From: a virus
DNA: 25,413 bases
IMG/VR virus record: IMGVR_UViG_3300026257_000024
Coordinates: 1-25,413 of that record
Strand: one strand, 5' to 3'
Shown one piece after another: positions 7,542 through 23,233 of the stretch. The first letter of the stretch is position 1. Each line of letters starts with the position of its first letter. The translations under genes and the position numbers were made by a program. The notes below the pieces were generated by a model, which saw only the letters and a program-made list of their open reading frames with translations, ran no database searches and was not told where the DNA came from.

Positions 7542-7776
7542 ATGGAATTACGAGAAGAATGATCTCGATGCAAGAAAATTTTGCTTAGGTGCAATCGTTA
7601 GTGCTCGTAAACATAACATTGACAGAAACACTTATGAATTCTGCCAATCCTTTGTGGAGTCAGGGAAAGCAAGGGAAATTATAGAGCAAGAGCTTCCTAT
7701 GGAGGAGGCATTTGCCTTGATACAGGATGAGTATCAAATGCTACTTGACAAAAGACTTAACAGAAAGTTATACTAA
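7531..7776 (+). CDS. Hypothetical acidic helical protein (81 aa)
   Basis: MIPEWNYEKNDLDARKF is followed by a mostly helical protein with an acidic centre (REIIEQELPMEEAFALIQDE). There is no known motif. It is the third gene after the promoter at 7153, and its stop codon lies within a CTAAATA late-type box (7773-7779). Confidence 0.6.
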   Translation: MIPEWNYEKNDLDARKFCLGAIVSARKHNIDRNTYEFCQSFVESGKAREIIEQELPMEEAFALIQDEYQMLLDKRLNRKLY

Positions 7777-7779
7777 ATA
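7773..7779 (+). promoter_or_regulatory. Late-type promoter box CTAAATA (5' of RNA candidate)
   Basis: CTAAATA overlaps the TAA stop of the upstream gene. A start about 6-8 nt downstream would place the RNA 5' end at about 7785, exactly at the first hairpin of the non-coding region that ends in a terminator at 7923. Confidence 0.45.
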
Positions 7780-7865
7780 ATTCGTCAGGTTAATCTGACT
7801 GCGGTGACCCCCTTATAGGTTCAGGGTTAGCGGCGATAGGAACCTATTGCTATTGGATAAAGTCG

Positions 7866-7889
7866 TATATTATTTCGACTTTTGATTAC
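7866..7889 (+). repeat. 24-bp exact repeat, copy 1
   Basis: Contains TATTATTTCGACTTTTGATT. All 24 bases recur at 22294-22317. In this copy the repeat supplies the loop and 3' arm of helix 3 and runs straight into the terminator stem. Confidence 0.85.
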
Positions 7890-7890
7890 C

Positions 7891-7923
7891 AAATACCCCG
7901 AAAAAAAATCGGGGTATTTTTTT
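7891..7923 (+). terminator. Strong intrinsic terminator
   Basis: An 11-bp perfect stem, AAATACCCCGA (7891-7901) with TCGGGGTATTT (7909-7919), has a seven-A loop and its final T residues run on to 7923. The A-rich 5' arm would let it act in both directions. It separates the RNA region from the purC unit. Confidence 0.92.
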
Positions 7924-7944
7924 GGTCTGCAGGGATTTAAAAAA

Positions 7945-22293: not shown

Positions 22294-22317
22294 TATATTA
22301 TTTCGACTTTTGATTAC
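22294..22317 (+). repeat. 24-bp exact repeat, copy 2
   Basis: Identical to 7866-7889. It sits in the 55-nt gap between convergent genes. CGACTT (22304-22309) in the repeat can pair with AAGTCG (22322-22327). What follows (GGAAAAAAAACTC then GGTATTTTT) looks like a decayed version of the terminator after copy 1. Confidence 0.85.
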
Positions 22318-22348
22318 AGATAAGTCGGAAAAAAAACTCAAGGTATTT

Positions 22349-23233
22349 TTAACTTCCAGAGGTTGAGCTAGAATCTGTAGTACCAGAGATAACTCCAGAT
22401 GAGTTAACAGTACCAGTATTTGATGTATCTACAGTTCTGACCTGTTCACCAGATGACAGTGTAGTCACTGTAACGGTTCTATTGACTAATTCTTGATTAG
22501 ACGCAAAAGCGACTGTAGCAGATTGACCATATACTGTGCTATATCCATTTTTCTCTGTAACGAAGATTTCCTCTACAGCACCCCAAGTCATTTTTACGTC
22601 ACCAGAATCAACTTCTTCATGTGGCGAATATTGGCATAATCGTCTAAATTCCTCTGCAAAGGTTTCTACGTATGCAGGCTTTAATAACCATATATTTGCC
22701 TTATAGTCATTTATCTGTTTTTCATGTTCATAGTTGGTAATAGGCACTGACGCATTTGTCACTGTGACTCCCTGAATCTTATAGGTGAAATTTTCGTTTA
22801 CTTGTAATCCTGCAGGTACAACGATATCACCTCTATTGGATATTACCTCTTCATCTTGGTGATAGTCATTTGATCTTATTTCGTTAGTTTCGTAATGGTG
22901 GATTTCATCGGTATTACCATATTTCTTCGTAATTACGTTATATAACTGATCTTCGGATAATGGCCATTCATCATAAACGTTTATAATATTGTTACATAGC
23001 AAAACAATCCAATCATAGTCAGTAGATCCATAAAACCTTTGAGCGACCTGATCTGGTCTTTCGTTATTTTGTATAGTTACTTGCTCAAATCCAAGAATTG
23101 CTTTTTGGATAGTATCAATAATTTTTGCTCTTCTAAAGATATTCGTAGCTACAACATATGGTTCGACGTTATTGCGTCGTATACTAGTAACCCTTACTTT
23201 GACTTTAGGTAGATATTTAAAATAATTTGACAT
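22349..23233 (-). CDS. 53: Baseplate wedge subunit gp53
   Basis: The N-terminus MSNYFKYLPKVKVRV, followed by TNIFRRAKI, and then NERPDQVAQRFYGSTDYDWI, VLLCNNIINVYDEWPLSEDQL, is the gp53 signature with a LysM-like segment (residues about 57-110). gp53 joins wedges in the T4 baseplate. At 294 aa it is longer than T4 gp53 (196), with an added C-terminal domain and a Ser/Thr/Gly-rich tail. Start and stop overlap gene 48 (TAATG on the minus strand). Confidence 0.88.
   Translation of the reverse strand: MSNYFKYLPKVKVRVTSIRRNNVEPYVVATNIFRRAKIIDTIQKAILGFEQVTIQNNERPDQVAQRFYGSTDYDWIVLLCNNIINVYDEWPLSEDQLYNVITKKYGNTDEIHHYETNEIRSNDYHQDEEVISNRGDIVVPAGLQVNENFTYKIQGVTVTNASVPITNYEHEKQINDYKANIWLLKPAYVETFAEEFRRLCQYSPHEEVDSGDVKMTWGAVEEIFVTEKNGYSTVYGQSATVAFASNQELVNRTVTVTTLSSGEQVRTVDTSNTGTVNSSGVISGTTDSSSTSGS

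Follow-up and report, generated by a model that had tools for sequence, protein, structure and literature searches.

The window, the whole 25,413-nucleotide stretch of viral DNA analysed here (IMG/VR record IMGVR_UViG_3300026257_000024), carries on its plus strand, between a unit of small genes and purC, a short interval that an initial annotation had described as a candidate free-standing cyanophage small RNA or switch. The features listed in that annotation, a CTAAATA heptamer, a pair of pseudoknot strands and a terminator, were all found where it had placed them. The interval is preceded by a predicted sigma-70-type promoter, TTGACA (7745-7750) and TATACT (7769-7774) separated by 18 nt, which matches 11 of 12 positions, is one of the top three among 63 promoter-like sequences found over 20 kb and, with homology running from the -35 box onwards, is orthologous to the psbA-leader promoter of three other contigs (L111, L232 and L251). 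CTAAATA (7773-7779) is present and overlaps the -10 box of this much better promoter; it may be a T4-like late promoter element, a role that we presume, and L111 has ATAAATA at the equivalent position, but the window shows no enrichment of the heptamer (7 occurrences against 5.5 expected). The 11-bp terminator is confirmed as a psbA-type intrinsic terminator (7891-7926) with a stem of 11 pairs (7891-7919) followed by a T run; the stem is the longest of 21 terminators found in 20 kb, and the T run would mark the end of a predicted transcript of about 140 nt. No plausible coding frame exists over 7778-7925, as had been claimed: two ORFs of at least 20 aa overlap it, one of 46 aa on the minus strand and one with a TTG start from 7882. 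The region 7773-7930 folds more stably than chance (z -4.2), and does so with the terminator removed (z -2.9). As anatomy, the free-standing small RNA of the initial annotation thus stands: promoter, covarying pseudoknot, terminator and no ORF.

The RNA itself occupies 7784-7847, about 64 nt, and consists of a 5′ hairpin, P0, sitting immediately 5′ of an H-type pseudoknot built from helices P1 and P2. P0 (7784-7799) has the stem strands GTCAGG and TCTGAC around a TTAA loop. The 5′ strand of P1 (7802-7810, CG-G-TGACCC) pairs with its 3′ strand (7824-7832, GGGTTA-G-CG), with one G-G mismatch between 7804 and 7830, and the 5′ strand of P2 (7815-7822, ATAGGTTC) pairs with the 3′ strand (7840-7847, GAACCTAT) that ends the conserved RNA. 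The loops are L1 (7811-7814, CCTT), strongly conserved in 101 sequences, the single A of L2 (7823), and L3 (7833-7839, GCGATAG). Among the matches listed, L2 is A in 168 of 168 copies selected without regard to P1 and L3 reads GCGAYAG in 166 of 166 contexts, an invariance that is partly built in by construction, the search patterns having fixed parts of the loops; phage P-SSM2 has a different L3, GCTATAG (GCUAUAG in the RNA).

The fold is established by covariation across an alignment of 101 of the at least 102 distinct cores, in which the window stands for L082, a contig of its own population, and L276 (see below) is left out. Standard pairs fill 99.9% of the 1688 pair cells, and G-U pairs make up 108 of them, as expected for an RNA. 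Double changes occupy 266 pair cells compared with 75.8 in shuffled alignments, none of 500 shuffles reaching as high, and changes on both sides occur at 11 of the 18 pairs; sliding the partner strands by 1-3 columns lowers pairing to 13-52%. The compensatory change that the initial annotation had proposed to look for among homologous cyanophage loci is therefore overwhelming, and its suggested pseudoknot partners, ACCC (7807-7810) and GGGT (7824-7827), turn out to be exactly part of the covariation-proven P1. Selecting copies without P1 gives the same picture: among the matches listed, all five inner P1 pairs form in 166 of 168 distinct copies and four in the other two, with 29 different combinations of P1 strands. 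In relatives of phage S-B05 one G-C pair of P1 is replaced by U-A.

The window copy is one member of a new cyanophage RNA family with conserved loops and a hairpin at its extreme 5′ end. By BLAST the core (7798-7843) is about 91% identical in ACG-2014f phages and S-SCSM2R, immediately 5′ of tRNA genes, with weaker matches in S-SKS1, RB11-B, S-H68, S-B05, S-B43, S-SM2 and Bellamy; a covariance model adds P-SSM2. The element occupies 144051-144102 in P-SSM2 and 142161-142210 in S-SM2. A match in S-PM2 (E 0.086) was dropped, as by eye it lies in coding sequence and has no motif. Pattern scans of IMG/VR, which give a lower bound on abundance, yielded at least 226 copies that pass the structural filters, at least 166 of them distinct with their flanks and at least 102 distinct in their cores; the contexts analysed below were filtered for a P2 of at least 5 bp, at least 5/6 of P1 and at least 4/6 of TGCGGT. 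The same family is effectively absent from the bacterial and archaeal genomes scanned: the genome contigs of 84,980 species gave 20 pattern matches, of which L276 alone fits the structure. This putative bacterial homologue was rejected, since its ‘Rhodobacteraceae’ contig consists of cyanophage DNA, with 94% of it covered by phage Sf-FS3 at 76.5% identity; the contig in question, NZVE01000057.1 of a metagenome-assembled genome, has evidently been mis-binned. Among 22 complete isolates examined 13 are without the RNA, which is therefore not essential. Carrier genomes are larger (median 210 versus 182 kb, p 0.0017), a difference from which nothing is inferred as the genomes were not sampled at random. 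A role at the replication origin was considered and set aside, the cumulative GC skew of S-SM2, S-SKS1 (first 200 kb) and P-SSM2 being nearly monotonic and so uninformative.

The RNA is usually present once per record. When whole records were searched, 20 of 22 had a single copy and two had none; a further search of 50 records gave one copy in 47 and two in three. In a search of 19 records, P-SSM2, a second ACG-2014f isolate, S-H68, S-B43 and four IMG/VR contigs each gave a single significant copy, and 11 gave nothing significant (P-SSM4, S-PM2, Syn9, S-RSM4, P-SSM7, S-SSM5, S-SSM7, P-RSM4, S-SM1, Syn1 and S-WAM1). Among the two-copy records, both copies lead tRNAs in one (L030), one leads a tRNA and the other an ORF in the second (L205), and the third is an inverted pair with identical flanks (L135/L223) that is perhaps an assembly artefact.

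What follows the RNA varies. Of the 166 contexts among the matches listed, 93 were scored as followed by a tRNA, 64 by an ORF, 2 by a terminator and 7 by something else; by eye three of these seven (L015, L056 and L214) are tRNAs truncated where the contig ends, and L082 was scored as ORF though a terminator follows, so that with the window population counted a terminator-like hairpin stands behind 3 of the 166. The tRNAs called by ARAGORN in the 93 listed contexts are Arg-UCU (63) and Pro-UGG (30), and the gap between RNA and tRNA is 2-6 nt in 92 of these 93 listed cases and 9 nt in one. Downstream ORFs include PsbA (L111, L232 and L251), a PstS-like protein, peptide deformylase, a 2OG oxygenase, a protein weakly matching a Phd/YefM-like antitoxin, and PHROG 552, a family of unknown function; these genes share no pathway. 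Conversely psbA occurs without the RNA in P-RSM6 and S-SZBM1, and tRNA-Arg without it in S-SZBM1. Given these varied neighbours and the same genes elsewhere lacking it, the RNA is bound to no particular downstream gene. Two units are free-standing, that of the window and that of L253, which runs from psbA through TATAAT, 6 nt, P0 and pseudoknot to a terminator with nothing coding between them; L253 was rejected as an emptied psbA unit, because its psbA stops just upstream of the RNA. In a separate contig (L238, 2995-3482) a hairpin and an ORF that by eye has the appearance of an HNH endonuclease lie between the RNA and the tRNA, as if a homing gene had taken the junction as its insertion site.

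These contexts bear on the suggestion that the element is a switch or a metabolite-sensing attenuator. A conserved pseudoknot with conserved loops is what a ligand-sensing RNA might look like, and in the window it is followed by a terminator and then purC. The hairpin said to compete for 7840-7847 is present there. It is found, though, in just 1 of the 166 contexts among the matches listed, that of the window population, which makes it a local accident and leaves a switch or attenuator unsupported; neither a conserved, mutually exclusive helix nor an expression platform turned up in these 166 listed contexts. The terminator-like hairpins in 3 of the 166, the 2-6 nt left by 92 of the 93 listed tRNA-linked copies, too little for an expression platform, and the want of a common downstream pathway all speak against it, and we consider a ligand-sensing riboswitch or attenuator quite improbable.

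A self-cleaving ribozyme that would release the tRNA or downstream RNA is an idea invited by the compact pseudoknot, the phage setting and the tRNA neighbours, as in the HDV-like theta ribozymes. Theta ribozymes of gut phages are small pseudoknotted RNAs adjoining tRNA genes and sit at the 3′ end of the tRNA (PMC10879173). The RNA described here is a simple H-type pseudoknot, in contrast to their nested double one, and precedes the tRNA 5′ end in 93 of 93 ARAGORN-called cases among the matches listed, none of which places a cleavage site at the tRNA 3′ end. A nested double pseudoknot with a P3 helix and a catalytic C in J4/2 is not formed either, as the gap from the 5′ strand of P2 to the 3′ strand of P1 is a single nucleotide, too short for any P3. 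The predicted start site would already set the 5′ end, and the core has no conserved flanking site; a ribozyme is accordingly very improbable.

The family apparently has not been described so far, is strongly conserved and occurs in many viruses of ocean cyanobacteria. No description was found in the open-licence literature searched, subscription literature lying outside the scope. The comparison with Rfam proposed in the initial annotation, naming the phage-associated manA and wcaG motifs, assigned no family to the element: at the gathering score none of the 4227 families of Rfam 15 lies over it in the window or in the related loci scanned, where the matches (tRNA, manA, wcaG, tmRNA and glutamine families) are all elsewhere. 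Permissive matches in the window fall far below the cut-offs and include neither manA nor wcaG, and the L126 copy gave no Rfam match at E up to 5, those two included. Likewise neither the window nor the L126 copy attains the covariance-model scores of manA (55.2 bits) or wcaG (42 bits).

The RNA is a new family within the general kind of structured cyanophage RNA, and so not categorically new. Like it, manA (RF01745) is a structured cyanophage RNA set in tRNA clusters and wcaG (RF01761) often shares its gene neighbourhood; the manA model, however, has 192 positions, and the sequences and folds of both are unrelated to the pseudoknot. In all nine complete carrier isolates run for both families, one of them lies 78-2593 nt from the pseudoknot RNA; in four isolates manA is 78 nt away with tRNA-Arg in between. 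Both are usually annotated as cis-regulatory. The order in ACG-2014f and RB11-B is pseudoknot RNA, tRNA-Arg, manA, tRNA, with 1 nt on each side of manA, which is wedged between two tRNAs at L003 2555-2913 and L127 857-1215; here manA looks like an RNA gene of a stable-RNA (tRNA) operon and less like an mRNA leader, an arrangement that puts a purely cis-regulatory switch in question for these phages. In P-SSM2 the model start of manA follows about 8 nt behind a TATAAT box. Another RNA of these clusters is a match to cyanobacterial-type tmRNA at L102 3577-3818 (minus strand), in a cyanophage tRNA cluster that also holds the pseudoknot RNA and a wcaG RNA.

The type III antitoxin RNAs of the ToxI type are tandem pseudoknot repeats beside a ToxN gene. 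They resemble the present RNA in being small H-type pseudoknots, which could bind protein, and differ in their tandem repeats, of which there are none at the pseudoknot RNA; a search of the window for ToxN gave no match, nor did the control genomes.

In relatives the position of the RNA behind a sigma-70 promoter is locked to the predicted start site. Among the matches listed, 137 of 165 contexts with P0 have a -10 box (at least 5/6) within 25 nt; a -35 box of at least 5/6 accompanies 122 of these 137 listed copies, and exactly 6 nt separate the -10 box from the first base of P0 in 125 of them. By comparison a -10 box was found 150 nt further upstream in 7 of 163 listed contexts. Counting distinct upstream sequences, the 6-nt rule is kept in 106 of 123 among the matches listed, all beginning with GT. 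A P0-type stem (5 bp or more, short loop) is present in 65.7% of 140 distinct upstreams among the matches listed; swapping the flanks lowers this to 29.0% and shuffling to 6.9%. From this spacing, transcription is predicted to start at base 1 of P0 in most copies. The psbA-type copies deviate, the window having 9 nt between -10 box and P0. Elsewhere, seven contigs (L018, L071, L079, L097, L201, L260 and L262) have no promoter or P0 and carry upstream a larger conserved structured stretch, GGGCAU..AUGCCCC, for which Rfam scans of two of the loci, L018 and L079, gave no match.

Such a lock is also what a cis-acting 5′ leader would show, the main rival of the reading as an RNA gene set out below. 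The hairpin at the start site and the pseudoknot would shield the 5′ end from host RNases that depend on it, or act on RNA polymerase in the manner of put RNA of phage HK022, and so raise downstream expression. Reportedly put consists of two hairpins in the early operons; it too is structured and stands at the head of phage transcripts that host RNA polymerase produces, and by this description is set apart from a pseudoknot that is mostly single-copy and stands before tRNAs and many genes. A buried 5′ end is compatible with stabilisation, and tRNA operons, psbA, pstS-like and deformylase genes are among those that follow the RNA. Against a leader, most records have a single copy despite many strong promoters (at 5+5 matches, 80 in S-SM2, 104 in 200 kb of S-SKS1 and 107 in P-SSM2), related phages have the same genes without the RNA, the free-standing copies stop at a terminator, and the loops are conserved beyond the need of a protective hairpin. 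We therefore regard a cis-acting leader as unlikely on balance.

The window copy is apparently a psbA unit without psbA. Its promoter and leader are homologous to psbA leaders (85% identity with L111, 78% with L232 and 80% with L251), the alignments stopping at 7844, 7846 and 7845, respectively, and from 7848 onwards about 1 kb of the window matches L344 at 97% identity. This contig begins inside psbA, so that the comparison covers no leader of its own, and continues through the last psbA codons and the 3′ UTR to the terminator and, beyond it, a small ORF and purC. Positions 7849-7860, overlooked in the initial annotation, are by this alignment the final psbA codons (GCT ATT GGA TAA), and 7861-7890 the psbA 3′ UTR, identical to that of L344. 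No psbA was found in the window. In L111 the order is pseudoknot RNA, psbA, terminator and purC; and of the seven IMG/VR contigs with the terminator pattern, six carry it closely behind psbA and one is L082, from the window’s population. The homology breaks off at the final base of P2, and the two homologies together suggest that the psbA reading frame was deleted from the last P2 base pair to the final codons, apparently the reason why the RNA now separates the small-gene unit from purC, as had been pointed out. An assembly fault at the junction is unlikely, since two contigs with different ends share it; they are 99.9% identical over 9 kb, and the psbA-less arrangement was found in this one population.

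The deletion raises the question of whether the window copy is a degenerate leftover of psbA, devoid of function, within a family that is itself real. An apparently lost psbA and an extra hairpin with GCGATAG that is new in the window would fit such a relic. Yet all pairs of P0, P1 and P2 and the conserved loops are intact, the promoter retains 11 of 12 matches, the terminator is perfect, and the two contigs agree at 99.9% over 9 kb, which renders a relic improbable. The apparent loss amounts to a natural experiment in which the leader has been set apart from its gene, although retention of the copy says little if the loss, seen in one population, is recent.

Taken together, covariation, the start lock, the mostly single copy, the varied neighbours and the free-standing units favour a small stable phage RNA gene that probably acts by binding protein, to which we assign a probability of roughly 45%. 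Host RNA polymerase would transcribe it and its triphosphate 5′ end would be buried in P0, while the 3′ end would be made by whatever follows: RNase P at a tRNA, the terminator in the window and L253, or other processing. The transcript would be short-lived as a precursor and stable as the small RNA. The loop nucleotides (CCUU of L1, A of L2 and GCGAYAG of L3) most likely serve to bind a protein of host or phage, so that the RNA would work in trans, as a decoy or an effector, at takeover. A counterpoint to action in trans is that in 64 of the 166 contexts among the matches listed the RNA was scored as lying ahead of an ORF, a setting in which it might act in cis. Nor does one copy per genome alone show it: single copy as a proof of trans action is weakened by the controls, since the 14 complete genomes searched include 7 with a single manA and 11 with a single wcaG, the latter exceeding the curated cut-off in 10. 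More tentatively, it is possible that this is a phage-only, trans-acting, start-locked RNA gene that moves between tRNA-operon, psbA, pstS-like and free-standing transcripts and borrows their 3′-end makers, and that it would form, with manA and wcaG, a set of single-copy RNA genes of cyanophage tRNA islands that serve host takeover and do not act as riboswitches. The RNA is in any case a strongly supported family of abundant ocean viruses, and its presence in cultured phages (P-SSM2, S-SM2, S-SKS1, Bellamy, ACG-2014f and S-B05) makes it directly testable.

Some further terminator arrangements were observed. A second, decayed psbA-type terminator stretch (82% identity) lies at 22294-22350 of the window behind a 2OG-Fe(II) oxygenase gene, and S-SZBM1 has a similar terminator behind a single-stranded DNA-binding gene. 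At 64-101 the window contains a composite terminator-promoter, in which the hairpin GGAGGGTG..CACCCTCT shares bases of its loop and 3′ arm with the -35 box TTGACA and the T run of the hairpin forms part of the spacer before TATAGT; a like arrangement precedes manA in P-SSM2.
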